Shown here piece after piece: positions 16,632 through 61,085 of a DNA stretch of 64,000 bases (position 1 is its first letter; the number at the start of each line of letters is the position of its first letter). This DNA comes from Streptococcus sp. oral taxon 056 str. F0418 (GTDB lineage Bacteria > Bacillota > Bacilli > Lactobacillales > Streptococcaceae), in NCBI RefSeq assembly GCF_000220065.1, contig NZ_AFQU01000001.1, positions 496,001 through 560,000 of the forward strand, read 5' to 3'. The notes under the pieces were generated by a model, which was not told where the DNA came from, did no database searches, and saw nothing but the letters and a program-made list of their open reading frames with translations. A program made the translations under genes and the position numbers.

Positions 16632-16644
16632 TCTCATAATAAAG

Positions 16645-16818
16645 AGTTTGGGACAAAAGTCCTAGCCTCTCAATTGTCTTTGGATTGTCGAGCAAGACGC
16701 AGTGGTTGAGTGAGCTCTACTACGCTGATTTCATCAGCTTTTACAGCCCTACTCAACTGTGCGGAGGTGGGACGACGAAATCGAATTCTAACGAATTACC
16801 GATTTCTGTCCCACTCTC
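16645..16818. repeat. dispersed intergenic repeat, copy A
   Basis: About 174 bp, nearly identical (I count about five differences) to the reverse complement of 23355-23529. The ends are short inverted repeats (TGGGACA / TGTCCCA). It sits between the convergent lysS and efflux permease genes. It encodes no convincing protein; a frame reading into it is shared by both copies. Confidence 0.93.
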
Positions 16819-16837
16819 TTTATTATTGTTTCATTTA

Positions 16838-23337: not shown

Positions 23338-23354
23338 AATTCGATAACACAAAT

Positions 23355-23529
23355 GAGAGTGGGACAGAAATCGGTAATTCATTAGAATTCGATTTCGTCG
23401 TCCCACCTCCGCACAGTTGAGTAGGGCTGTAAAAGCTGATGAAATCAGCGTAGTAGAGCCCACTCAACCACTGCGTCTTGCTCGACAATCCAAAGACAAT
23501 TGAGAGGCTAGGACTTTTGTCCCAGCCTC
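23355..23529. repeat. dispersed intergenic repeat, copy B (inverted relative to copy A)
   Basis: Reverse complement of the 16645-16818 element, with the same TGGGACA-type ends. It lies between the plus gene ending at 23337 and the minus nitroreductase, so each copy separates two convergent genes. The remaining bases to 23704 show no gene. Confidence 0.93.
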
Positions 23530-23704
23530 ATTTTCTATTTTGTCCTGCACTTCAAAAAAGTAAAAATCTAATATTTGAAGTGTTTTTCTGTACAATCAGC
23601 TGATCCAAGTAGACATCAAATGTATAAACTAAACAAGAAAAACAATTTTCGAAAAATCAATAAAATAAAGAACTATTTTCACTATGCTAAATACTGTTCA
23701 GCTT

Positions 23705-25872: not shown

Positions 25873-26802
25873 CTATTTAACCATATCTGGGTCGTATTCG
25901 TAAAAACCAGTATCCAAGAAACGATTTTTAGGATGGTAGCGATGCACAGCCTCATCTAAAAGAAATGCTTGGTCATGAGTAAATTTACCAGCTAATATTA
26001 AATCACGCGCTTGGATAAATAATTTAGCAATCTCTACAAAATTATGTCCTGGAGTGTAAATTCCTTCTAGCTTCCAGTGAGTAAAGCCATGTTCTACCAA
26101 CTCTAGCAATTTAGTCATCAAATCCAAGTCATTATTAGCAAAAATATGCGTCCCGTGATTATCCTCAAAGATAGAGTAATGACTAGTCGGATCAGCTGGC
26201 TCTGCTAGGAACAAATCACGCTCCCTTGTCTTTTCGTCATCAATATGCGTGAAATTATAGTAATTTTGCAACAAGGGCCGCTTTGAGTGGTGGATAACAC
26301 TGGCTCCATATACTAGCACTTCGGCTGGAATTTCTAGAATATCTTGCATTGCAAAGAGCTCAGCTGATGGAACTTCTCTAGCTAAAACCGCCTCTGATGC
26401 TCCAGCTTTCTGCCCCCAGAAATTGATTTGGCGGCTACTTGTTACCATAGTAGAAGCATCATAAATCGTTTTGAATGGATACTTGTCTCGATTTACCACA
26501 TAAAAAACACCTGCGTCACCAACTGTGATATAGTCTGTTTTAATCTCAGCTAGGAAATCAAGAAAAGGTTTAATGTTATCCATCATATCTTGGTGCATCA
26601 AAGCGTTGACTGCGACAACAATTTCTCTGCCTGCTTCATGGACTAAATCCGCAATCTGTCTAAGCTCATCATAAGAGAAAGTATGTGGCAATCGAAGGCC
26701 GTAATGCTTTTCACCAACATAAATCCGATCAACTCCTGCTTCTAGAAGTTCTTTTACTTGTTCAATGCTTTCAGCTGTTGCTGTAATGATTATCTTTTCC
26801 AT
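25873..26802 (-). CDS. U32 family protein, shorter TrhP-like partner
   Basis: A 309-residue U32-like TIM-barrel protein (VKELLEAGVDRIYVGEKHYGLR, IVVAVNALMHQ, ITVGDAGVFY, AVLAREVP, VLVYGASVIHHSKR). It lacks most of the cysteines of the long paralogue. Paired long and short U32 genes are common in Firmicutes and are thought to act together in tRNA hydroxylation. No ribosome site precedes the ATG, and TATAAT lies 7 bp upstream, so translation may start on a leaderless mRNA. It is the last chromosomal gene before the integrated element. Confidence 0.85.
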   Translation of the reverse strand: MEKIIITATAESIEQVKELLEAGVDRIYVGEKHYGLRLPHTFSYDELRQIADLVHEAGREIVVAVNALMHQDMMDNIKPFLDFLAEIKTDYITVGDAGVFYVVNRDKYPFKTIYDASTMVTSSRQINFWGQKAGASEAVLAREVPSAELFAMQDILEIPAEVLVYGASVIHHSKRPLLQNYYNFTHIDDEKTRERDLFLAEPADPTSHYSIFEDNHGTHIFANNDLDLMTKLLELVEHGFTHWKLEGIYTPGHNFVEIAKLFIQARDLILAGKFTHDQAFLLDEAVHRYHPKNRFLDTGFYEYDPDMVK

Positions 26803-26808
26803 AGGTTT

Positions 26809-26814
26809 ATTATA
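26809..26814 (-). promoter_or_regulatory. -10 element for leaderless U32 transcript
   Basis: TATAAT on the minus strand (26814-26809) ends 7 bp before the ATG at 26802. Transcription would begin at or next to the start codon. A TTGACT lies 20 bp upstream, which is longer than ideal. Confidence 0.45.
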
Positions 26815-26847
26815 TCATGTCCTCTTCTTTTTAATCTAGTCAAATCA

Positions 26848-28425: not shown

Positions 28426-28806
28426 CTATCGTGACAACTCTTTCTCTACTTGCATGATGACATATTCTAAATCTTCTCGCAACTTTGGAATATCTTCTAT
28501 AGCTGTTTCAATTATAATTTTAGCTTTCATGCTCCCATAATCATGATAAGCCCTATTTCTAAAACCTTTAATAGTCTGAAACGGAATTATATCTGAGAAT
28601 TTCTCCTGCGTTTCTTCGGACAACTTACCACTTCCTAATTGTTCGCCTATTTGACCAATAACCATAGCTAAAGAATTAACTGACATTTCATCCGTTATAG
28701 GAATATTATAATGATGAATTTTCCTCAACGTATTTTCAACTTCCTCTATATAGTACATCATCTGTTTAAGATAGGAGTAGTCTCTCTGTAATCGCTCTAT
28801 TCTCAT
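28426..28806 (-). CDS. hepT: HepT-like toxin (HEPN ribonuclease)
   Basis: A 126-residue all-helical HEPN protein. The active-site motif R-x4-6-H-x-Y is visible as RNRAYHDYG near residue 83. HepT toxins cleave RNA and are silenced when their MNT partner AMPylates the tyrosine of this motif. It overlaps the mntA gene by 41 bp, and the pair forms a toxin-antitoxin module that would stabilise the element. Confidence 0.85.
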   Translation of the reverse strand: MRIERLQRDYSYLKQMMYYIEEVENTLRKIHHYNIPITDEMSVNSLAMVIGQIGEQLGSGKLSEETQEKFSDIIPFQTIKGFRNRAYHDYGSMKAKIIIETAIEDIPKLREDLEYVIMQVEKELSR

Positions 28807-29113
28807 AAATCACTATCCTCTCTTTCAAAAATTGCACACGTAATTGTTGAGTAATATAGGATTTCCCCGTTAATATTTCTTCAACAGTTAACACATCTAC
28901 AGGAATATTAAACAACGCTTTTATTTCTTCTTCCATTTCAAAATACATCAATCCTGAAACAATGCTTCCTGTTAAATCTATAGCTAAATCAATATCGCTC
29001 ATTTCGTCAGCCGTTCCACGTGCATAAGAACCAAAAAGATAAACTTTAGAAATTTGATATTTATATGCAATGACACTCAGTTTAGATTGTATGTCTGAAA
29101 TTGTATAAATCAT
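28766..29113 (-). CDS. mntA: MntA-type nucleotidyltransferase antitoxin
   Basis: A 115-residue minimal nucleotidyltransferase with the motif GSYARGTADEMSDIDLAID (GS-x10-D-x-D). It is expected to add AMP to the HepT toxin encoded downstream and so neutralise it. AGGAGG precedes the ATG, and TGTTATAAT (extended -10, TATAAT at 29161-29156) lies about 43 bp upstream. The two genes overlap and must be co-expressed. Confidence 0.87.
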   Translation of the reverse strand: MIYTISDIQSKLSVIAYKYQISKVYLFGSYARGTADEMSDIDLAIDLTGSIVSGLMYFEMEEEIKALFNIPVDVLTVEEILTGKSYITQQLRVQFLKERIVIYENRAITERLLLS

Positions 29114-45863: not shown

Positions 45864-48800
45864 CTAATTTTCTTCTTTCTTCAAACCAAATACACCTAAA
45901 GCAGAAACTAAAAGAATACCCAAAACAGAAAGTCCTGTTGATTGATTACTTCCTGTTTCTGGAAGTTTTGGTTTCGGTGTTTCTGGTTTTGGTGGTTCAT
46001 CTTTCCGTGGCTCTTCTGGTTTAGGTGGTGTATTAGTTTCTACTACATTTGATTTAGTGGTCACACCATTGACAATTTCATCAAATTGATTGATGGTTTT
46101 ACCTGGTGCAATTTGCTTAACATAAGCATAGCCCTCTACGCCAAATTCACCTGCTGGAGAGACTTTCGCCAAGAAAATTTTATCAAAGCTATAAGTCACT
46201 GTATGAGTGACTTTATCATAAACAGATTTTACATACTGAGTCAACTCTTCGCCCTTTTTGATAATCGTATTATCAGAAAGTTTGAAATCCACAACCGCAA
46301 AGAACTGGAATTTATTTTGATACTCCACTTTTTTGTCAAAATGATCTACATAAACCAAACTATCAAGCACCTTAGATCGATTAGCTGGAAAATGAGTTGA
46401 TTTCAACTGATAAGTAAATTCTGTATCAAGCGGAATCGTTTGACCATTAATAGACTTCTTAGTTTGTGCCTCCTGGATTGACTTAGCCACATCCTTTTTC
46501 GGTTCTGGTTTAAGAATATCATTAATGACTGGCTCGCCATAATAGCCATTGTTATAATCCACTTGGTAAACACTATTAATGTATTGACCCGTTACATCTG
46601 TTTTATTTTGCATAGGCAAGTCAAAGACAATATTAGTGCCTGTCTGATTGTATTTAGCTAGGTGTTCCGCAGAATTTTCCGCTACCCACATCAAGAAATT
46701 GCCTTTTGGTTTAATGCCTGTTAAGCCTAACACTTTTCTAACAATTTCATCTTGTGCTTGACCCGATAATACATGATACAATTTCAAGCCATTTACCGTC
46801 TTACCTTGAGCATCCTTGATAGTAAATTGATCAACCAACGGTGTAACCTTGCTTTCATCATAATCATCAATATAAGCCTGAATTGTTTTCTCAGCTTCTT
46901 TTGTGATCATCATATTTCTATAAGGTGTTTTCTTCCAAAGTGATTTATAATGATTGATTTCACCTTGTAAGGTTGTCTTGCCATCAATGATTTCCCCCTT
47001 ATCATTGTGATTGTGTTTTTCTGGACGTATTCTATCCCGATTTGGATTATTTGGGTCATCTGGTTTCTCAGGATCTTCCTTACCAGGCGTCTTAATCACA
47101 ACCTTATTTGAAGTCTTTGTGACATTATCTTTCGGGTCTTTACCTGTTAATTCCAGGTTAAAGACATTAATGTAAGTAGCCGCATCATTCTGTGGCGCAA
47201 AGTAAATCTTAACAGGTTTAAAATTAAAGGCTTTCATCTTATCTGCATTGAGAGACTTGATAAGATTATCTTTAAAATTGATAACCGTTTTACCTGACTT
47301 ATCAATCGCAATACTGTAGTCTGTATTAGCCTGATTGGTTCGCTCTACATCGACCTTCAAACCATTTGGTAAATTATCAACCAAACGACCTGCCGTGTAT
47401 TCTGGCCGATTTGCAGGAAGTGGATTAATGTTCAAATGATAAACATTATTCGAGTTCTTCACCACGTATTGACCATTGACATCAGTTCCATCAGAATTGA
47501 CCACTGCCTTCGAAATACCTGGTATACGTTTCACCTGAAGGGGATTGACCGTGGTTTTTAGTTTCACATCATGTACGGTAGTTGCCACCTGAAACTTTGG
47601 TACAGTAACTTTTTCAGTCGCTGGTTTTGGTAGCTGTGGCAATGTTGGAACAGGTGGAATCTTTGATAATGGCGGTAAAACATCATTGTTATTAGTGAAG
47701 CGTATAGCTCCCCAACCATGTGTATCATGAATCCAATCATCATGAATTTTGATGAAATTGATATAACCAGAAGAAGAATGAGGCGCAATTCTACGATGAA
47801 TATTTAAAGGAACAGTCTTATTAATAGTCTCCGTGAAACTATTAGCCCCATGATGAGGTTTTACATAAATGAGATTGCCTGTTACTTGATCAAAGATTTT
47901 AAAGGAAATATCCTGATTAACCGCTTCGTTATCCTTTGTTTTATTATAAACATAAGTATTGAGATACATACTAATCAATTCAACATCGATAGAGCCATCT
48001 TCATTAACACTATAACGATAATTGAGTCCACCCGTTAAAGTACCATTCCCAATCACACCAACACCATCAACCAAATCATGTGTAAATGTAAATCGATTAC
48101 CAGAAATACTTCCACGCATAAATGAATGACCATATTCATCGTTTTGAGTGTCTTGTGTTTTAGTGGCTATATCAACTGCTACACGATTAAAAGCTGATTG
48201 ACGTTCTCTTTCAACTTGAGCTTTCTTTGCGATCGCTGCATTGTACCTTGATAACGCTTCCTGATATTCACGTTCCTTCTTAGACTTCTCTTTTAAATAT
48301 GCTGCTTGGGTTGACTGACTCTTTTTAACAACCCCATTCACCTTATTGATCGTAACCTGAATTTTAGCAGAGAGTTCTTCTTTTTTAACTATCTCAGTTG
48401 CACCTTGCTCAACCGTTACACCAGCTTTCTTAGCTTCATTTGATGCAATATTTACTTGTTGATTAGCCTTATCTTGTTCAGACTTAGCTTGGTTGACTTG
48501 GTTCTTTTGAGCATCCAGGTCTTTTTTGGCTTCTTCCAGATTTGCGTATTCTTTGGTGCCTGATTTAGTCACTTTTAGCCCCGCTTTTTCAGCAGTAGCC
48601 ATCGTTTCAGCAACACTAGCTTTAACGTCGTTTTGCACCTTGGTTGTTTGTTCAACCTTAGCTTTCTGATCCAAAAACTTGTTTTCTGCTTCCTTATCAC
48701 TTAAGACTGTTTCCATAGCCCCTTGTTCAACCGTTACGCCCGCTTTTTTAGCCTCTTCAACAGCCTTGTTTAAGTTCGTATCAGAAACAGGTGTCGTCAT

Positions 48801-49052
48801 GTTACCAATACTTTTATTTTCATTAGCAATAGCCTGCTTTTGATCTTCTGTCGCTTCAGCTTGTGCACCTGGTAAATTAGTTGCTGGATTCGGTGTTGTA
48901 TTCTCAACAGCTACTGGAGCTGAGGAGGTCGTCTTTTCATCTGCGCTAGCTACTTGAGAGCCTAATACAATCAGAGCCGTACCTAGCACTGCTCCACAAA
49001 GTGTTTTAAAAGCTTTAGATTTTCTAAAGCCATATCTTATTTCTTTTTTCAA
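45864..49052 (-). CDS. antigen I/II-like LPXTG surface adhesin
   Basis: A 1062-residue protein with a long signal peptide (YGFRKSKAFKTLCGAVLGT, cut after ASA-DE), alanine-rich coiled-coil repeats with the antigen I/II hallmark KKAGVTVEQGA (about 85-240), and a V-like beta domain (about 290-450). A proline-rich link (PPVPTLPQLPKP) follows, then C-terminal adhesin domains of the isopeptide type (FKPVKIYFAPQNDA; LDTEFTYQLKSTHFP; GVEGYAYVKQIAPGKTINQ) and the sorting signal LPETGSN. The start is TTG with GGAG at 8 bp. It may promote adherence and mating-pair contact. Confidence 0.9.
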   Translation of the reverse strand: MKKEIRYGFRKSKAFKTLCGAVLGTALIVLGSQVASADEKTTSSAPVAVENTTPNPATNLPGAQAEATEDQKQAIANENKSIGNMTTPVSDTNLNKAVEEAKKAGVTVEQGAMETVLSDKEAENKFLDQKAKVEQTTKVQNDVKASVAETMATAEKAGLKVTKSGTKEYANLEEAKKDLDAQKNQVNQAKSEQDKANQQVNIASNEAKKAGVTVEQGATEIVKKEELSAKIQVTINKVNGVVKKSQSTQAAYLKEKSKKEREYQEALSRYNAAIAKKAQVERERQSAFNRVAVDIATKTQDTQNDEYGHSFMRGSISGNRFTFTHDLVDGVGVIGNGTLTGGLNYRYSVNEDGSIDVELISMYLNTYVYNKTKDNEAVNQDISFKIFDQVTGNLIYVKPHHGANSFTETINKTVPLNIHRRIAPHSSSGYINFIKIHDDWIHDTHGWGAIRFTNNNDVLPPLSKIPPVPTLPQLPKPATEKVTVPKFQVATTVHDVKLKTTVNPLQVKRIPGISKAVVNSDGTDVNGQYVVKNSNNVYHLNINPLPANRPEYTAGRLVDNLPNGLKVDVERTNQANTDYSIAIDKSGKTVINFKDNLIKSLNADKMKAFNFKPVKIYFAPQNDAATYINVFNLELTGKDPKDNVTKTSNKVVIKTPGKEDPEKPDDPNNPNRDRIRPEKHNHNDKGEIIDGKTTLQGEINHYKSLWKKTPYRNMMITKEAEKTIQAYIDDYDESKVTPLVDQFTIKDAQGKTVNGLKLYHVLSGQAQDEIVRKVLGLTGIKPKGNFLMWVAENSAEHLAKYNQTGTNIVFDLPMQNKTDVTGQYINSVYQVDYNNGYYGEPVINDILKPEPKKDVAKSIQEAQTKKSINGQTIPLDTEFTYQLKSTHFPANRSKVLDSLVYVDHFDKKVEYQNKFQFFAVVDFKLSDNTIIKKGEELTQYVKSVYDKVTHTVTYSFDKIFLAKVSPAGEFGVEGYAYVKQIAPGKTINQFDEIVNGVTTKSNVVETNTPPKPEEPRKDEPPKPETPKPKLPETGSNQSTGLSVLGILLVSALGVFGLKKEEN

Positions 49053-49103
49053 TCTTTTTACTCCATTCTATGTAAACTTCACTATGTATGTTATATTGTA
49101 TTT

Positions 49104-49131
49104 TCCTAAAGAGTGAGTGAGCACTCTTAGG
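49104..49131. promoter_or_regulatory. inverted repeat upstream of the antigen I/II-like gene
   Basis: TCCTAAAGAGTG faces CACTCTTAGGA around AGTGAG (one bulged base). On the minus strand it lies just before TACAAT/TATAAC -10-like elements of the adhesin gene. It may be an operator. Confidence 0.35.
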
Positions 49132-49133
49132 AA

Positions 49134-49160
49134 TAAAAAAAGAAGGCGCTCTAGCCTTCT
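49134..49160 (-). terminator. terminator of the SEC10/PgrA-like gene
   Basis: AGAAGGC (49141-49147) pairs with GCCTTCT (49154-49160), with a T run on the minus strand, 22 bp after the stop. Confidence 0.85.
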
Positions 49161-49181
49161 GTAAATATAAAATCATCTATA

Positions 49182-51608
49182 CTAATACTCCTTATTTCTC
49201 ATGTTTTTTATTTGAAAAAGTAAACTAAACGCTCCCACAATCATGCCATAAATAGCAAAGAGGCTCATGCTTTGGCCTGTTTTTGGCAAAGCTTTTGCGA
49301 CTGGTTTAACAACCAACGGTGTAGCTTTCTTCCCATCCACATAACCAGTGATTTCTCCTTTAGCATTCACAACTGGCACTGGCTCACCACCTGCTTGTTT
49401 GATAGCTTGGTATTGTTTGGCAAGCTCCGCCTGACGCTCTGCTTCCAGGTATTCCTGGTAAGCTTTTACAACCTTAGCATTTTGAAAAGCTACTTCTTTT
49501 TGAGTGGCTTTTAATTCATCTAATTTTTTAATTTCTGCCTTCAAGATTGCTGTCTTTTCAGCCAAAACTTTTTCAGCTTCAGCTAAAATTTTTGGTGCAT
49601 TCTTCAAATCAACTACTCGTTTTTCAGATGAAGTTAAAATGTTTTGTGCTTGTGTCAAATCCGCTTGAGCTACCTGTACGCCTTTTTGAGCCGCTACAAC
49701 TTCCGATTCCTTAGCAGTTAATACCTCTTGTTCTGCTTTCAGAGTTGTATTTAGCGTAGCCAATTCTGCCTCTTTAGTCTTCAATACGGCTTGAGCGTCA
49801 GCTAGATTGGCTTGTTTAGCTTTAATATCCGCATTCAGTTCTTTGACCGCTTTGTTTGCTTTGGCAAGAGTTGATTCATCAAGCGCTAATTTATCTTGAA
49901 CAGATTTTAAATTTGCTTGAGCCGTCGGTGTTTGTAAAGCTTGATTTTTAATACTATCACGTTTAGTCGTTGCTTGAGTAAGGTTAGCGGATACTGTATT
50001 AAAGGCTGTTTGAGCATTAGTTTTAGCCGCTTGAGCTGTATCATTGCTTGCGATTGCTGTATCATAATTGCTTTGAGCGACTTGTTGCTTAGTTAAGAGC
50101 CATTCACTGTTATAAGGATTCTCAATAGCGGTTTTAGAAAAGTTAGTAGATTGTGCAGTCAGTTGAGAGGTTTTCACATTCAGAAGATGTAATCCTGAAT
50201 GACCATTGACATAACTGAAAGCTAATCCCATATAGGAAGCACTATCATCTTTCGTACCTAACACATCATTTGCATGATCCCATTCTAGGTATTCGTCTCC
50301 TGCTGGGAAAAGAAAGCGTAAGAGTGATTGATAGACTTGCTCTTTTAATTGAGCCTTAGTAGAGCTATTCCCATGAATCCCAGACCAATCTTCGTAGAAG
50401 TTGCCTTCAGTATCAGAATCTTTTAAGTGATATTCTTTGGCGACTTTGGTCAAGCCTTTTTCATTGTGACCACCTTTCGTCCAAGCGTCCCAGTTGTCTG
50501 CGACGGTTTGCTTCACAACATTTTCCGCAAACTCAATACTTGATTTAGTCACACTAGTTAACGGTGTTCCTACTTGCTTACGAGCTTGATTAATCAAGTC
50601 TGATGCAAATTGGGATAGATCTTCTAAGACATCTGATGGTACTTCATTTAAAGTATAAGTCTTTGTATTGTCATCACTTGGATTAGACTTGTATTGATGA
50701 GCTTTACGTAACTTTTCACTTTCTTTTGCAAGTGTTGCCTGGTCATTCTTTTTAAGTGCCTCAATATAAGCAGGAGATAAAGTCAGCTGGTTAAGATATT
50801 TCACGGCATTGTCTGCTTGTGTTTTTGCTTCAGTCGCTGTCTTTAAAGTTGCTTCTGTTTGAACTGAAACTTTCATCTTTTCAGCAAGAATCGCTTCTTT
50901 TTCTGTCTGCTCATTTTTAAGAGATACAACTTCTTTTTCTGCACTTGCTAAAGCAAGTTCTCGTTCCCGATCAGCTTTTTTGGCTACTTCCAAAGAGGCT
51001 TGTGCCATAGCAACCATCTTCTTATCTTCTTCTACAGTATCTTTTGCATTCTTTTGATTATCCAAAACTTGTTTAGCGCCTGTACCGTTTAAAATTGCTT
51101 CTTTTTCAGCAACAGTCTTTTTAGCTTCCGCAACTTCTACATCTTTTGCTTGAACTACTGCTTTAGCTTTGTCTGTTTTCCTAGTTTGTTCAGCTTGATC
51201 AGCTTTTGCCTTCGCTTCAACAGCTTGTTTTTCTTTCAACGTCGCTTCTGCTTTAGCTTGTGCTGTTTGGTTAGCTACCACCTTTTCTTCCGCATTTTTA
51301 ATCGCTTCAGGAGTTGCCTCTTGGACTAATTTATCGGCAACAGCTTTAGTGTCTTGAGCCTTGTTAGCATCAACTGTGGCTTGTCCAACCACTTTGTTTT
51401 GTGATTCTACAGCTTGATTAGCTTGAGCTAATTCAGCGTTTGAGCGATCAAAATCTTCTTTAGTCACCGTTTTTGTAACGGATAACTGATTCTCGTAAGT
51501 CTGACTAGAGACCTGCACTTCGTCCGCTTGAACTTGATTTACCAAAGTTACACTAGCTGTTACAGCCGCTGTTGCAAGTAATGTTTTTTCATAAATAATA
51601 CTCCTCAT
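49182..51608 (-). CDS. SEC10/PgrA-type surface exclusion protein with LPKTG anchor
   Basis: An 808-residue protein with a signal peptide cut near VQA-DE, a long Ala/Lys/Glu coiled coil (about 50-265), and a central globular domain (about 280-480; DLSQFASDLINQARKQVGTP, FYEDWSGIHGN, YLEWDHANDVLG) typical of SEC10/PgrA. A second coiled coil follows (about 500-740), then LPKTGQSMSLF with helix and basic tail. It would reduce entry of a second copy of the element. The frame opens at ATG 51608 without a ribosome site. A strong GAGGAG is ideally placed for the ATG at 51592, which is one A out of frame. Confidence 0.87.
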   Translation of the reverse strand: MRSIIYEKTLLATAAVTASVTLVNQVQADEVQVSSQTYENQLSVTKTVTKEDFDRSNAELAQANQAVESQNKVVGQATVDANKAQDTKAVADKLVQEATPEAIKNAEEKVVANQTAQAKAEATLKEKQAVEAKAKADQAEQTRKTDKAKAVVQAKDVEVAEAKKTVAEKEAILNGTGAKQVLDNQKNAKDTVEEDKKMVAMAQASLEVAKKADRERELALASAEKEVVSLKNEQTEKEAILAEKMKVSVQTEATLKTATEAKTQADNAVKYLNQLTLSPAYIEALKKNDQATLAKESEKLRKAHQYKSNPSDDNTKTYTLNEVPSDVLEDLSQFASDLINQARKQVGTPLTSVTKSSIEFAENVVKQTVADNWDAWTKGGHNEKGLTKVAKEYHLKDSDTEGNFYEDWSGIHGNSSTKAQLKEQVYQSLLRFLFPAGDEYLEWDHANDVLGTKDDSASYMGLAFSYVNGHSGLHLLNVKTSQLTAQSTNFSKTAIENPYNSEWLLTKQQVAQSNYDTAIASNDTAQAAKTNAQTAFNTVSANLTQATTKRDSIKNQALQTPTAQANLKSVQDKLALDESTLAKANKAVKELNADIKAKQANLADAQAVLKTKEAELATLNTTLKAEQEVLTAKESEVVAAQKGVQVAQADLTQAQNILTSSEKRVVDLKNAPKILAEAEKVLAEKTAILKAEIKKLDELKATQKEVAFQNAKVVKAYQEYLEAERQAELAKQYQAIKQAGGEPVPVVNAKGEITGYVDGKKATPLVVKPVAKALPKTGQSMSLFAIYGMIVGAFSLLFQIKNMRNKEY

Positions 51609-55316: not shown

Positions 55317-55370
55317 TTTGTCAATACTTTTTTAAAATTTTTAAAATATTTTTTGAAAGGCTTAACTACA

Positions 55371-55718
55371 ATGTTTACAGAACGCCTCAAATCACTACGT
55401 AAAGAAGCTGGTCTTACACAGAAAGATATTGCACTTCATTTCAAAACTAGTCCTCAAAGCTATGCTCAATGGGAAAAAGGACTTAGAAGTCCTTCTAAAG
55501 AAAGCCTAGAAAAATTAGCTAATTTTTTCAATGTTTCAACCGACTATCTTTTAGGAAATTCTGACATCAAGAACCCAGAGGACGAATTATCAAATGTTGA
55601 GATCCTTTTTCGTAAGACCTCAAAAAATATGACTTCTGAACAAAAAGAAGTCTTTCAGAGAGAACTACTGGAGTTTATGGAAATCAGAAGGAAAGCTTTT
55701 GAGGAAGACAAAAAGTGA
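55371..55718 (+). CDS. Xre-family repressor (ImmR-like)
   Basis: A 115-residue regulator with an N-terminal helix-turn-helix (MFTERLKSLRKEAGLTQKDI, then SPQSYAQWEKGLRSPS) and a helical C-terminal dimer part. Its neighbour is an ImmA-type protease, as in ICEBs1, where ImmR represses excision and transfer genes until ImmA cleaves it. GAAAGG supports the chosen ATG over an earlier start. Operators lie directly upstream. Confidence 0.88.
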   Translation: MFTERLKSLRKEAGLTQKDIALHFKTSPQSYAQWEKGLRSPSKESLEKLANFFNVSTDYLLGNSDIKNPEDELSNVEILFRKTSKNMTSEQKEVFQRELLEFMEIRRKAFEEDKK

Positions 55719-56587
55719 CCAATACCTATTTCAAAGTTTGGGAAATCGTTAGAAAAGAACTCTACCACTTTATCAAACTCCACAACATTTCAAAAGTGAA
55801 CTATACTTTTGAACCGTATTTCAATTACATTACCAAGAAATACAAGATAAAAATATTGCCTCATCATTTTTCAGACGAGGCAATTTTAGGTCTGACTTTA
55901 ATTGACAGATTAGGAATCTCTTTCTCTTATGAAATTACCAGCATTCCTGCTAGGCAGAATTTTACTAAATGCCATGAATTAGGTCATCTAGTTTTACAAC
56001 ATTCAGGAACAGTCTTTTCAGAAAATAAAAACAATAAAGATTGGCAAGAAATAGAATCAAACTATTTTGCTTCTTTCATTCTAATGCCAGATATTGTCTT
56101 ACTATCCAAAATCGTCTATCAAAAAAGATCTTTTCAGGACTTAACAAAAGAACTGAAGGTATCTACACTAGCCCTAGAAAGACGACTAGTAGAATTATTA
56201 TATTTTCAAGGTAATCTCTCTAAAATCCAAGCACACGAGATAACAAAATCCTATATTACTCAAAAACCAAAAGCACTAATTGAAACTATAATAAACCTAA
56301 AAGAAAAAATTATCTATGATTACGAATCTATAAAAGTTGATGATATTGATAAACTTAAAGAATATATCAAAGAAAAGCATTTCATTACTCAACTAGATAT
56401 TCCGTCTCTAATTGATATAGAATTTCAAAAAACTATCAGAAAACTTCCTGACATCGAAATCAATACTTATTACAATCAAAGTTGCTTAGTGATTTATGTT
56501 TGGAATCCTCAAAAACTAACACCAGAAGAGAGCCTACGAAAAGCAAAAATTATTCATTACGAATTAAAACAAAAAAGGACTAGCTAG
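55715..56587 (+). CDS. ImmA/IrrE-type metallopeptidase
   Basis: A 290-residue protein with the zinc motif KCHELGHLVLQH (HExxH) near residue 90 and a downstream conserved ESNYFASFILMP with the third ligand. It is longer than ICEBs1 ImmA, with a C-terminal domain of about 120 residues. It begins at GTG, overlapping the repressor stop (GTGA). It probably cleaves the repressor after DNA damage or cell signals and so induces the element. Confidence 0.88.
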   Translation: MTNTYFKVWEIVRKELYHFIKLHNISKVNYTFEPYFNYITKKYKIKILPHHFSDEAILGLTLIDRLGISFSYEITSIPARQNFTKCHELGHLVLQHSGTVFSENKNNKDWQEIESNYFASFILMPDIVLLSKIVYQKRSFQDLTKELKVSTLALERRLVELLYFQGNLSKIQAHEITKSYITQKPKALIETIINLKEKIIYDYESIKVDDIDKLKEYIKEKHFITQLDIPSLIDIEFQKTIRKLPDIEINTYYNQSCLVIYVWNPQKLTPEESLRKAKIIHYELKQKRTS

Positions 56588-56955: not shown

Positions 56956-57084
56956 AAAATACCTCACTACTGTTCTGTATGAATATTGTAACACAAATAG
57001 CATAAAAAATAAATTATTCTCGCAATCCAAGAAGATAATCTACACTAACATTAAGTATAGCACTAACCTTCTCATCATTATTTT

Positions 57085-57132
57085 ACAAAATAAAATATAT
57101 CAAATCATATTTGATATACTTTACTTTATAAA
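57085..57132. repeat. 48-bp repeat with internal palindrome, left copy
   Basis: Identical to 60241-60288 except one base. The core ATATCAAAT-CAT-ATTTGATAT is a perfect 9-bp inverted repeat. It lies downstream of the methyltransferase-TIR cassette. Confidence 0.92.
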
Positions 57133-57173
57133 AATTGTGAACAAACTCGTAATAAAATATACTAAAACAATTT

Positions 57174-57323
57174 TTAATCTACTTTATTTTTAATACTCCA
57201 AGGACGCTTTAACTTAAATTCCTCTTGAGTTAATATTTCTCCACCTAAAGATTTAAAATAATCCTTATTCTCCTCTTTAGTATGACAATCTTTTTGGAAT
57301 AATTTACATGCATGTTCTAACAT
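57174..57323 (-). CDS. short third gene of the cassette, HNH-like fragment
   Basis: A 49-residue frame directly after the GHKL-TIR gene (a longer TTG start overlaps it). It holds CKLFQKDCHTKEENKDYF, recalling the cysteine/histidine end of HNH endonucleases, then KSLGGEILTQEEFKLKRPW. No ribosome site. It may be a remnant of a nuclease or a chance frame. Confidence 0.35.
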   Translation of the reverse strand: MLEHACKLFQKDCHTKEENKDYFKSLGGEILTQEEFKLKRPWSIKNKVD

Positions 57324-57334
57324 TTCATGCAAAG

Positions 57335-59074
57335 TTAAAAACCAACATCTGTACAAAATACGTCTTCTTTATCTAATATGACTTCTGCAAATCTCTTATC
57401 AATGTCCAAAGGTTGTGTAGGAAAATTAGTTCCCGCTTTCACTACACCATGATCCGTTTGTACAATCCATCCAGCACCAACTTCATGCATCACTCCTGGA
57501 CTAGCGCAAGAATTATCAGAATAAATATAAACAACAAAAATAGGCTTTTTAGAATATGTTTGAATAAAAAAATCTCTTAAATAATCATAAATGCCAACAC
57601 CATAAGGAACAGAAGAAGCTACATCACCACTATTTGTATAAATAATTTCTTTAGGCTCAAAACCATTAAATTGTAATAAAGAGTATATTATATCATTTAA
57701 CTTTGCATCATCTTGTGTATGGCTCAACAAAATTTTCTTACTATCTTTATCAACCGAAATTTTCTTTATACCCATATCAGTCAGAACTTCATTAATTACT
57801 CTATGAAGATCTCCTTTCTGCTCCACTACAGTACTAATGGCTGTTATTCCTTTTTCTACAGATTCCTCTAAAGCTCTTTCCTCTTTCTTTCTCCTCTCTT
57901 TCTTGCTTTTTTCCTGTCCTTCTTTTTTTAATGTAAGAGCTTTCTGTTTTAATTGTAAAACATCACTCAACGACTTCCTTGCTATTTCTAAAAAAGTAGT
58001 ATAACGAATATCATCAACTTTATACCCTTGCCTGTTGCTAAGTGCCATATCAGGTAAACTTGTCTCCTCAAATTCATCTACATAAAATTGACCTACAACA
58101 TACACCTCGTACAATCGATTAGCACCAATCTGCTGTAAAATATTGAATTGGCCTAATTTCTCATGTGAATATATTGCCAAAAAATTATCTGGAAAATCAA
58201 AATTTTTATCTGCTTTTAATCCTCTCGTACTACTATAAGTTCCAATCCAGCCTTTAACTTGTAATTCTCTTTTCTCTTCTTCACCATTCTTATTTTTTAT
58301 AATATATTTTTTAGTTTGAACTTCTTTCTTTTTATAATTTTTCTTTGCATATTTACTTGAATTCTTTCTAAAATAATCCTCTATATTAGAAAAATCTTTT
58401 CCATAAATAATTAATGAATCCAAAGTTTGTCCCATCGATGAAACAAAATTATCAATCTCTACTTTTTCATCTTCTCTCCATACATGAATAACAAAATCTT
58501 TTCCTACATTCGGAAAAAATTTTACAATATTTCTTTTAAAAGTGGCCAACTGCTTAGGTAATTCAAATTCTGGAGATAACATTTCAACTCTCGTACCACC
58601 ATCTTTAATATGTTTAAATGTAATTTGATTATCCAATAATGGGACTAACTTATCATTTTTCGGTACCGTCCTTGATAAAATAAAACCTGACACATCATTA
58701 TCTAATTTTGATTTTGTCATTACGTTTACTCTATCTGAAATAGCTAACGCAGCCAATTTACCAATTCCTTTACGTCCCATTTTAGGACGTTTCAATTGCT
58801 TACTTGTAGAATCATCATCAGTATTACGAGTAGATTTAGCAACAGATAAGTATACATTTATATCTCCTTCATCATAAGACATCCCATTTCCATCATCCTC
58901 TACACTAATACTATTGTCTGTAATATCAATCCAAACATTTTGAGCATCCGCATCATAACTATTAGCAATTAACTCTGCTAAAACATAATAAATATTTGAA
59001 TACAAACTTGGGCCCAATAATTCTAAAATCTCTGGACTTATTTTAATTGGATATTCTTTACGCTCTTTGGTCAT
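57335..59074 (-). CDS. GHKL (MORC/MutL/Hsp90-type) ATPase fused to a TIR-like domain
   Basis: A 579-residue protein. The N-terminal GHKL ATPase shows the N box ELIANSYDADA (34-44), G1 DDGNGM (60-65), G2 GRKGIGKLA (100-108) and GTRVEM (160-165). A transducer-like middle (about 180-360) and a charged coiled coil (about 370-410) follow. Residues about 446-545 fit a TIR fold: KKILLSHTQDD, GFEPKEIIYTN, the VPYGVGIYDYLR loop, FVVYIYSDNS, then CASPGVMHEVGAGW, with E531 in the place of the TIR NADase glutamate. Its start overlaps the methyltransferase by 17 bp. MORC-type ATPases linked to methyltransferases have been predicted as restriction-modification parts. The TIR domain suggests NAD depletion on recognising foreign DNA. 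Confidence 0.85.
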   Translation of the reverse strand: MTKERKEYPIKISPEILELLGPSLYSNIYYVLAELIANSYDADAQNVWIDITDNSISVEDDGNGMSYDEGDINVYLSVAKSTRNTDDDSTSKQLKRPKMGRKGIGKLAALAISDRVNVMTKSKLDNDVSGFILSRTVPKNDKLVPLLDNQITFKHIKDGGTRVEMLSPEFELPKQLATFKRNIVKFFPNVGKDFVIHVWREDEKVEIDNFVSSMGQTLDSLIIYGKDFSNIEDYFRKNSSKYAKKNYKKKEVQTKKYIIKNKNGEEEKRELQVKGWIGTYSSTRGLKADKNFDFPDNFLAIYSHEKLGQFNILQQIGANRLYEVYVVGQFYVDEFEETSLPDMALSNRQGYKVDDIRYTTFLEIARKSLSDVLQLKQKALTLKKEGQEKSKKERRKKEERALEESVEKGITAISTVVEQKGDLHRVINEVLTDMGIKKISVDKDSKKILLSHTQDDAKLNDIIYSLLQFNGFEPKEIIYTNSGDVASSVPYGVGIYDYLRDFFIQTYSKKPIFVVYIYSDNSCASPGVMHEVGAGWIVQTDHGVVKAGTNFPTQPLDIDKRFAEVILDKEDVFCTDVGF

Positions 59075-60131
59075 AATTTAAACCTTTCAAATGATTCTGA
59101 ATACTCTCACCAATAACTTCACCTAACTTAGGCGGAACTGCATTTCCAATTTGTAACGCCACTTGGTTAAGAGAATAGTTACTACCTAATTCAGGATTCG
59201 AAAATTGATAATCCATCGGAAACGTTTGTAATAGAGCTCCTTCACGTAAACTCAATGCTCTATTCTGTTCTGGATGTCCAAAACGTCCATTTCCAATACC
59301 TGGAAATTGTGTGGTGATTGTACTAGAAGGTTTATCCCACTCTAATCGACCATAAACAGAACTATAGCTTTTACCTGTATCTTTCTTATACGCTTCTAAT
59401 AACAATTCTTCATCCCAATCTTTCCAAGTTCCTCCTGGTTTTGACTGTTTAATCCGTTTCATATTTAATGGAGATAATTTTCTACTTCGATGAAGAGGAT
59501 CCTTCAAATTCGTTTCACCTGCAGATAATTCAGGTAATTTACCAATAGCTTGACGCAATGTGGGATAATGATCTTTATCGTATTTTGCTTTCTCTAATTT
59601 AATTTTTCCAAGCTTTGAAGCTAGTAACAATAAACGTTTTCTATTTTGCGGAACACCATAGTCTGGAGCATACACAATTTTATAATCAACTTCGTAATGA
59701 TTTTTTTTTAGAATTTCTAAAAATTTTTCAAAAACTGGCTCTTTAGTCATTTGAGGAACATTTTCCATAGATACTATATCTGGTTGAACAAACTCAATTT
59801 GCCGCCCAAAATAATCTAGCAAATCCATCTTATTTAATCTATTTTCACTATTCTTATATCGATGACTGTAAGCAGAAAATGGTTGACATGGAGCGCAACC
59901 CATCAAAACTTTTACATCAGTATCTTTTGGATATAACTGAGTAATCTCATACTCTCCTATAGCTCTAACATCTTTTAAAATAAATTTGGCTTTATTATTA
60001 TATTCGTACGCGAATTGACTTTTCTCATCAATGTCATAACCAGCAACAACATTAATTCCTGCACGTTGAATACCACAAGTTAAACCGCCAACCCCACAAA
60101 ACAAGTCAATTGCCTGTATATTCAAAGTCAT
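59058..60131 (-). CDS. C5-cytosine-specific DNA methyltransferase
   Basis: A 357-residue Dcm-type enzyme. It has motif I DLFCGVGGLTCGIQRAG, motif IV GCAPCQPFSAYS with the catalytic cysteine, motif VI ENVPQM, motif VIII QNRKRLLLL, a target-recognition region (about 190-285), and motif X QIGNAVPPKLGE. It methylates cytosine in an unknown site and is expected to mark self DNA for the GHKL-TIR protein, with which it overlaps. AAAGGATG precedes the ATG. No normal endonuclease gene accompanies it. Confidence 0.97.
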   Translation of the reverse strand: MTLNIQAIDLFCGVGGLTCGIQRAGINVVAGYDIDEKSQFAYEYNNKAKFILKDVRAIGEYEITQLYPKDTDVKVLMGCAPCQPFSAYSHRYKNSENRLNKMDLLDYFGRQIEFVQPDIVSMENVPQMTKEPVFEKFLEILKKNHYEVDYKIVYAPDYGVPQNRKRLLLLASKLGKIKLEKAKYDKDHYPTLRQAIGKLPELSAGETNLKDPLHRSRKLSPLNMKRIKQSKPGGTWKDWDEELLLEAYKKDTGKSYSSVYGRLEWDKPSSTITTQFPGIGNGRFGHPEQNRALSLREGALLQTFPMDYQFSNPELGSNYSLNQVALQIGNAVPPKLGEVIGESIQNHLKGLNYDQRA

Positions 60132-60579
60132 TTATTACATCCTTTCTTATACTAATGAAACTTTTCCCAAACATAATGTAAAAATACCTCACCATATTAT
60201 ACAATATTTCAATCTATTTGTTGATTATATTTTTATATATACAAAATAAAATATACCAAATCATATTTGATATACTTTACTTTATAAACATTGACTAAAA
60301 ATATGACATGCTTGGTTATTTTTTGGTTAATTTTTTAAAATTTTATAATTTACAGTCCATAGATAGCTATAGATTAATAACAACATTTTTATTATTGTAT
60401 AGGTTTATTATAACATACTTTTAACTTTCTTTAATATTTATTTAAAAGAAACTTTATCTGCTGAAATTCTATACTTTATTTTCATATTGAAAAGTATTTT
60501 TATTGTTTTTGTAATCTTTTTGTAATAAAGGCCTTGATAAATCGTGATACAATATTTAAGTACTACTAGGAGAGAGAAT
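60132..60579. other. AT-rich junction region between cassette and chromosome
   Basis: Contains TATAAT of the methyltransferase promoter (minus, near 60200), the second 48-bp palindromic repeat, two ACAATATT motifs, and the probable right end of the element. At the right edge TGATACAAT (60546-60554) is an extended -10 for the DUF3270 gene. No gene seen. Confidence 0.5.
60241..60288. repeat. 48-bp repeat with internal palindrome, right copy
   Basis: Direct copy of 57085-57132 with one difference (C for T in the left arm). It lies upstream of the methyltransferase gene, so the pair brackets the cassette. Confidence 0.92.
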
Positions 60580-60908: not shown

Positions 60909-61000
60909 TTGCTATCTTTAAGAATTGATAATAAAAGCAACAGATTTTTACTCCTCTCCAAACTATATTTTAGAGTATGATTTGACTATCTCCAAAAATA

Positions 61001-61085
61001 AAAAGAGCTGAATTGTACTGTCCCCCAAAAGTTAGACAGAAAAATCTAACTTTTTGAGGTCAGTACAAATTTAAACAGCTCTTTT
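61001..61085 (-). terminator. ytxH-like gene terminator with an insertion in its loop
   Basis: AAAAGAGCTG (61001-61010) pairs with CAGCTCTTTT (61076-61085), with a T run on the minus strand. The loop is unusually large because it holds the 56-bp inverted-repeat element. Confidence 0.75.
61013..61068. mobile_element. 56-bp MITE-like element made of two insertion-sequence ends
   Basis: TTGTACTGTCCCCCAAAAGT and the rest of the left arm face the matching right arm, ending AGTACAA, around AAAAA; about 24 bp each, with few mismatches. The arm resembles terminal inverted repeats of streptococcal IS3-family elements. No transposase gene. Confidence 0.65.

Follow-up and report, generated by a model that had tools for sequence, protein, structure and literature searches.

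A pair of overlapping genes in a 64,000-nucleotide stretch of the Streptococcus sp. oral taxon 056 str. F0418 genome (contig NZ_AFQU01000001.1, positions 496,001 to 560,000; the whole stretch is hereafter the window) encodes a C5-cytosine DNA methyltransferase and a fusion of a MORC-type GHKL ATPase with a C-terminal TIR domain (GHKL-TIR). The pair is real, widespread and functionally suggestive, and we consider, with moderate confidence, that it is best explained as a restriction-modification (R-M)-like system in which destruction of nicotinamide adenine dinucleotide (NAD) replaces DNA cleavage. That GHKL-TIR stands in the slot of a restriction enzyme is most strongly suggested by the exchange of partner genes behind closely related methyltransferases of streptococci. 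The features of the pair, including its open reading frames (ORFs), are as follows.

59058..60131, minus strand: C5-cytosine DNA methyltransferase, 357 residues, first gene of the pair (PF00145, PADLOC and motifs)
57335..59074, minus strand: GHKL ATPase-TIR fusion, 579 residues as read
57929..59044, minus strand: MORC-type GHKL and S5-like ATPase module, residues 11-382
57338..57739, minus strand: the part of the TIR domain contained in the window ORF, residues 446-579
57482..57484, minus strand: codon of E531, which stands where TIR domains have their catalytic glutamate (E192 in SpbK), from alignment with SpbK NEMGATW and conservation in relatives

The product of the first gene contains the C5 methyltransferase motifs and matches Pfam family PF00145 (E=4.1e-57) as well as the PADLOC models DrmMII (E=2.4e-95, the best label) and MTase_II (9.1e-89). 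A reading of the window from its letters alone (the sequence-only reading) had reported that this gene overlaps the GHKL-TIR gene by 17 bp and had recognized in the second product a MORC/MutL-type GHKL ATPase and a C-terminal TIR domain; both genes are real, and profile and fold matches, among them a MORC fold match for the GHKL module, agree with the domain assignment. The best TIR match in sequence and in fold, and the closest solved relative of the C-terminal part, is the TIR NADase SpbK. Its residues E192, G194 and W197 align with E531, G533 and W536 of the window protein, each of which is found in all 78 relatives that reach the column (80 aligned), as is A534; E531 had been singled out beforehand as occupying the catalytic position, and its alignment and conservation bear this out. 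SpbK produces ADP-ribose and cyclic ADP-ribose from NAD (PMC12847820). It further resembles the window protein in being carried by an integrative conjugative element (ICEBs1), and differs in possessing a small helical portal-protein-binding domain and no GHKL module. It is conceivable that the TIR domain is a nuclease or a nucleotide-binding regulator rather than an NADase, the pair being a conventional R-M system. A nuclease or an allosteric site, not an NADase, was suggested for proteins of this architecture in section 5 of a 2008 paper (PMC2292703), and BbrUII/HgiDII-type proteins occupy the same slot in other strains, as detailed below. Nevertheless, we regard this alternative as very improbable, given that the best-matching protein in both fold and sequence, with identical catalytic and interface residues, has been proven to be an NADase and that the other leading VIA-align matches are also TIR domains, including those of SPARTA, AbTir and SARM1. 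Nucleoside deoxyribosyltransferases enter the Foldseek list from rank 15 onward.

When species genomes were scanned with patterns derived from GHKL, at least 591 candidate stretches were obtained, at least 567 of which were confirmed; the counts of relatives given here rest on the best 80 of the confirmed ones. These are spread over Firmicutes, Bacteroidota, Proteobacteria, Actinobacteria, Spirochaetes, Planctomycetes and archaea, many being metagenome-assembled. Linked pairs in other genomes, a search for which had been proposed with the sequence-only reading, proved common: a C5 methyltransferase ORF is located within 150 bp of the GHKL-TIR gene in 57 relatives and within 3 kb in 6 more (63/80). 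Most of the adjacent ORFs lie upstream on the same strand (46 of 57, with 26 of the 46 overlapping), the remainder being downstream on the same strand (n = 5) or on the opposite strand (n = 6); five of the 57 are short or weakly matching (L042, L051, L058, L067 and L076). The 17 relatives with no C5 methyltransferase within 3 kb comprise 15 in DISARM-type operons, L026, in which the contig starts at the GHKL-TIR gene, and L079, which has a weak C5-like ORF upstream. Chance proximity was rejected in view of the 57 overlapping or adjacent ORFs, the relatives having been picked by GHKL-derived patterns alone. Distances among the methyltransferases and among the GHKL-TIR proteins are correlated overall (Mantel r 0.42, with 0 of 2000 permutations as high). 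The methyltransferase adjoining the window GHKL-TIR is presumably cognate to it.

To follow the methyltransferase itself, we used 197 genomes of the genus Streptococcus, a sample of a larger group. Relatives of the window methyltransferase at E ≤ 1e-60 are present in 11 of them, and the gene that follows encodes GHKL-TIR in four (L134, L135, L002 and L003), a BbrUII/HgiDII-type GHKL protein of 650-676 residues in five, and a GmrSD_N-like protein in two. The latter was recognized by Pfam in L130, where a HEPN_MAE_28990 protein comes next, and by eye in L132, where transposase-like ORFs break it up. Of the five BbrUII/HgiDII-type partners, four match the model NF050001 over almost its whole length (294-375 bits), and the fifth, from L131, is 82% identical to that of L129. 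In alleles sharing a site, DNA homology extends from the flank through the methyltransferase and ends 9-19 bases before its end. The TIR-bearing L135 and the BbrUII/HgiDII-type L129 are 87.7% identical in DNA until 9 bases before the end of the methyltransferase gene, where they diverge, to re-join further on; a similar break separates L134 (TIR) from L133 at the valS site, with homology back after the partner gene, and between L134 and L130 homology is not resumed after the partner gene within the compared stretch. The methyltransferases of L135 and L129 are 96% identical, with 81 of 83 positions shared in residues 173-255, between motifs VIII and IX, which we take to be the target recognition region; the corresponding values for L134 and L133 are 85% and 67/83. 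Judging from this similarity, the L135 and L129 enzymes almost certainly mark the same sequence, so GHKL-TIR would coexist with a mark that is used by a restriction-enzyme-type protein.

The window protein itself matches NF050001 over residues 8-387 (model positions 1-367 of 659) with 195.8 bits, below the cut-off of 550; the C-terminal part of the model is unmatched, and the TIR domain is found there instead. The two types have in common a GHKL N-terminus, an adjacent C5 methyltransferase and the occurrence of related proteins behind closely related methyltransferases at the same Streptococcus sites, whereas the remaining C-terminal part is replaced by TIR in the window protein. The sequence-only reading had named a linked classical endonuclease in homologous loci as an observation that would speak against it. 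This was half borne out: a restriction-enzyme-type GHKL protein does occur at such loci in other strains, but it replaces the TIR protein and does not accompany it.

The functional part of the earlier interpretation, in which the ATPase senses unmodified DNA and switches on the TIR domain, gains strength from the linkage in many phyla and from the fact that closely related methyltransferases can be followed by restriction-enzyme-type partners instead. TIR NADases are active when clustered head to tail, and MORC-type ATPases undergo ATP-dependent dimerization and engage DNA. We infer a course of action consisting of unmethylated-DNA sensing, ATP-driven clustering, NAD loss and abortive infection. 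The C5 methyltransferase would mark host sites as self, and GHKL-TIR would take the place of the BbrUII/HgiDII-type restriction enzyme. Incoming DNA lacking the mark would be engaged by the MORC-like ATPase module and would load or close the GHKL clamp, the module closing as an ATP-bound dimer or a higher cluster; this would bring the C-terminal TIR domains into head-to-tail contact, and NAD would be cleaved in the composite active site, with E531, such that the infected cell stops before phage release. An old system for cutting the intruder may in this way have turned into one for sacrificing the cell. In its wider form, to which we assign an even chance, the proposal is that of a methylation-keyed suicide system, in which the C5 methyltransferase is a constant identity card and the killer cassette is swapped, its versions cutting DNA (BbrUII/HgiDII-type GHKL proteins), destroying NAD (GHKL-TIR) or possibly cutting RNA (GmrSD_N with HEPN), with GHKL-TIR also forming the abortive arm of a DISARM subtype and with missing base modification directly triggering a TIR NADase. 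If true, the methylation status of DNA would gate a TIR NADase in a two-gene unit of many phyla, uniting two textbook defence logics, namely self/non-self discrimination by methylation and abortive infection by NAD loss. Matched pairs for testing the idea are available in nature, where different killers stand behind closely related methyltransferases, and the MORC-like clamp would offer a bacterial model for the MORC/SMCHD1 ATPases.

Several observations weigh against this reading. The scores of the four partners matched to NF050001 (294-375 bits) fall below its cut-off of 550, the two BbrUII/HgiDII-type partners scanned yielded no Pfam nuclease domain, and their nuclease nature is suggested by the name of the model and by D...ELKK/ELKR motifs seen by eye. 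Because the GHKL parts of the partners are distantly related to the window GHKL (four of the five score 57-79 bits, and that of L128 is undetected at E ≤ 1e-3), the units exchanged were whole genes and not effector domains, and it is from the methyltransferase that we infer common site recognition by the exchanged partners. The test of co-evolution is weak, with a distance correlation of r ~0 among the 772 pairs below 50% GHKL identity. The complete TIR C-terminus is absent from the 579-residue window form, being present in P0001, a relative described below, and in other intact relatives. Finally, signalling instead of direct NAD loss is possible at the 5 of 70 loci with enough downstream sequence in which a small membrane-protein ORF follows GHKL-TIR. 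More generally, the TIR product might be a signal for a separate effector, for example, the 132-residue membrane protein of some streptococci, an explanation that we consider improbable: GHKL-TIR is directly followed by a small membrane protein in L001-L003 and, in L018, by a protein of SLATT type (Pfam DUF4231/SLATT_1), but such ORFs are confined to the 5 of 70 loci, and no such ORF was observed downstream of the window pair. The 132-residue protein is encoded 3′ of GHKL-TIR at L134:8329-8727 and L135:8695-9093.

A second setting of the gene is provided by DISARM-type loci. Fifteen of the 80 relatives match two or more DISARM-type queries, and in 10 of these the order is DrmD, DrmMI, GHKL-TIR, DrmA, DrmB, on one strand throughout. 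A DrmMI-like gene upstream and a DrmA-like gene downstream are found in 13 of the 15 (for example, L034:416-8001 and L029:9890-15777); in L075 a single ORF is hit by both the DrmA and DrmB queries, and in L069 both genes stand upstream. PADLOC labels were assigned to the ORFs of L034 and L029 and are partly mixed: the matches of L034:416-3616 are headed by one DrmA model, with nine DrmD models after it, those of L034:3613-8001 by REase_MTase_IIG, with DrmMI next, and in L029 the DrmA and DrmB ORFs hit no other families. A C5 methyltransferase is located on the same contig in 10 of the 15, L029 included (9 by sequence overlap), upstream on the same strand in nine and, in L022, downstream on the opposite strand. 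The L028 genome yielded no C5 methyltransferase at E ≤ 1e-40, and in L060, L069 and L073 none was placed on the GHKL-TIR contig; L075 was outside this search. The window methyltransferase, with DrmMII as its best PADLOC label, recalls DISARM, whereas six-frame stretches of the window gave no DrmD-, DrmMI-, DrmA- or DrmB-like match (phmmer with L034 and L029 queries, E ≤ 1e-3).

These loci bear on a guard model, according to which GHKL-TIR is itself blind to methylation and acts as a second-line abortive defence, set off either by a phage protein or when a phage inhibits the methyltransferase or DISARM. The gene may back up a larger system where it stands among DISARM-type genes, and SpbK, which has the closest TIR domain, is switched on by the portal protein of a phage, via an N-terminal domain of its own (PMC12847820). 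Arguing in the opposite direction, no DISARM-type gene was matched within the DNA examined around the 63 methyltransferase-linked loci, and the exchange with restriction-enzyme-type genes takes place behind closely related methyltransferases. We judge the guard model unlikely and retain the R-M-like system with NAD destruction as the preferred explanation. DISARM is usually discussed as DNA-targeting, and the association found here suggests a suicide branch in it.

The architecture of the window protein is already published: paraMORC4, a group of GHKL ATPases ending in a TIR domain, was described among components of R-M operons in 2008 (Iyer, Abhiman and Aravind, PMC2292703). The claim of the sequence-only reading that no such system had been described is therefore not borne out, and that interpretation is partly supported overall, correct in its domains, mistaken as to novelty and half contradicted as to the endonuclease. 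Like paraMORC4, the window protein has an N-terminal GHKL and S5 ATPase module, a C-terminal TIR domain and an R-M operon neighbourhood. In contrast, the paraMORC4 motif Hx[ST]xD after the first TIR strand reads HTQDD in the window and is found in 10 of the 79 relatives with letters there, for which reason we do not file the protein as a strict paraMORC4 member; it would work like a paraMORC component of R-M systems with a TIR NADase as killer. Sections 4-5 of the 2008 paper present paraMORC4 without NADase action, restriction-enzyme exchange or a DISARM setting, and what is new here is the C5 methyltransferase linkage, the partner exchange, the element setting and the proposed mechanism. Other effectors, nucleases or presumed RNases instead of TIR, are attached to GHKL ATPases in a comparable C-terminal position: VcSduA, with the Shedu nuclease, has been tested, in an article that does not use the word methyltransferase in its main text (PMC12137116), and paraMORC-HEPN (Ymh) fusions were tied to PrrC/RloC-like action in a 2013 paper (PMC3710099). 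A protein of the same plan with this further effector, GHKL with a C-terminal HEPN (Ymh) domain, is encoded at L104:1441-3123 and overlaps a C5-methyltransferase-like ORF. We found no tested GHKL-TIR system, and no experiment on any member, in the open-licence literature.

The window copy of GHKL-TIR has 579 codons, compared with 633 residues in P0001, an intact relative with 99% identity, its stop coming about 54 codons early; the sequence-only reading, right about both genes and their domains, had overlooked this shortfall. The missing tail is present in another frame.

57177..57335, minus strand: C-terminal tail of the intact relative, in another frame and unjoined to the ORF (three-frame reading against P0001)

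In the structural model, the lost stretch corresponds to most of helix 576-592 and everything after it. This helix probably corresponds to SpbK alphaE, a participant in the active interface (PMC12847820). The 3′ end of the window copy thus probably carries a defect, either real or from mis-assembly, and, because of the loss of the tail, the copy may itself be inactive unless the frame break is a sequencing fault. It is possible, at somewhat less than an even chance, that the window holds a decayed or mis-assembled allele, with the methyltransferase a working orphan and GHKL-TIR inactive. The early stop, the unjoined tail and the loss of most of a probable interface helix favour this possibility, against which stand the existence of the intact P0001 and the chance of a sequencing or assembly error.

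The pair is located near the right end of a putative integrative element, a candidate integrative conjugative element, of which it would be cargo and for which an empty site is found elsewhere. Two sets of repeats were recognized.

26801..26814: candidate left attachment site, a 14-bp repeat (flanks adjoining in three Streptococcus genomes)
60399..60412: candidate right attachment site, the same 14 bp (flanks adjoining in three Streptococcus genomes)
57084..57137: first copy of a 54-bp direct repeat, downstream of both genes
60240..60293: second copy, 96% identical to the first and upstream of the methyltransferase gene

The 14-bp repeat brackets, at 26801-60412, an integrase-like gene and conjugation-like genes recognized by eye. 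In the streptococcal stretches L147, L149 and L150, homologues of window positions 26817/26818 and 60467 are 9-64 bases apart, the interval being absent; the exact 14-mer was not found in these stretches. The 54-bp repeat contains a palindrome and brackets both genes within the element, and its core was not found in viral contigs. An 81-bp segment of another Streptococcus genome (L148:6463-6543), near an ORF of 784 residues, is 88% identical to window positions 60275-60355, possibly reflecting a common insertion boundary. A phage origin of the GHKL-TIR family was rejected: viral contigs contain nine loci, one at 44% identity over residues 6-557, one at 28% over residues 8-414 and seven matching over about the first 120 residues. 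Phage records gave two partial matches, one annotated ParaMORC3, and plasmid records gave 63, of which a single one, in a chromosome-sized Listeria record, covers 80%.

Beyond the 3′ end of the pair, on the other strand, a helix-turn-helix repressor and an M78 peptidase (55353-56587; CapH/CapP-like in PADLOC) could constitute an element immunity pair of the ImmR/ImmA kind or a DNA-damage switch. A role as regulator of the defence pair was set aside, though not disproved, as the two genes lie in this position and would fit an element immunity pair equally well. Also within the element, a nucleotidyltransferase-like ORF is followed by an overlapping HEPN-like ORF at 28426-29113 (by eye), presumably resembling a MntA/HepT toxin-antitoxin pair, and two large surface-protein-like ORFs with LPxTG-type ends are located at 45864-51608 (by eye). 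A short interspersed repeat at 60994-61070 has matches of ~40-95 bp at 78-96% identity, with many of the 197 Streptococcus genomes among the matches listed, and a second repeat of ~185 bp matches window positions 16641-16827 and 23351-23534.

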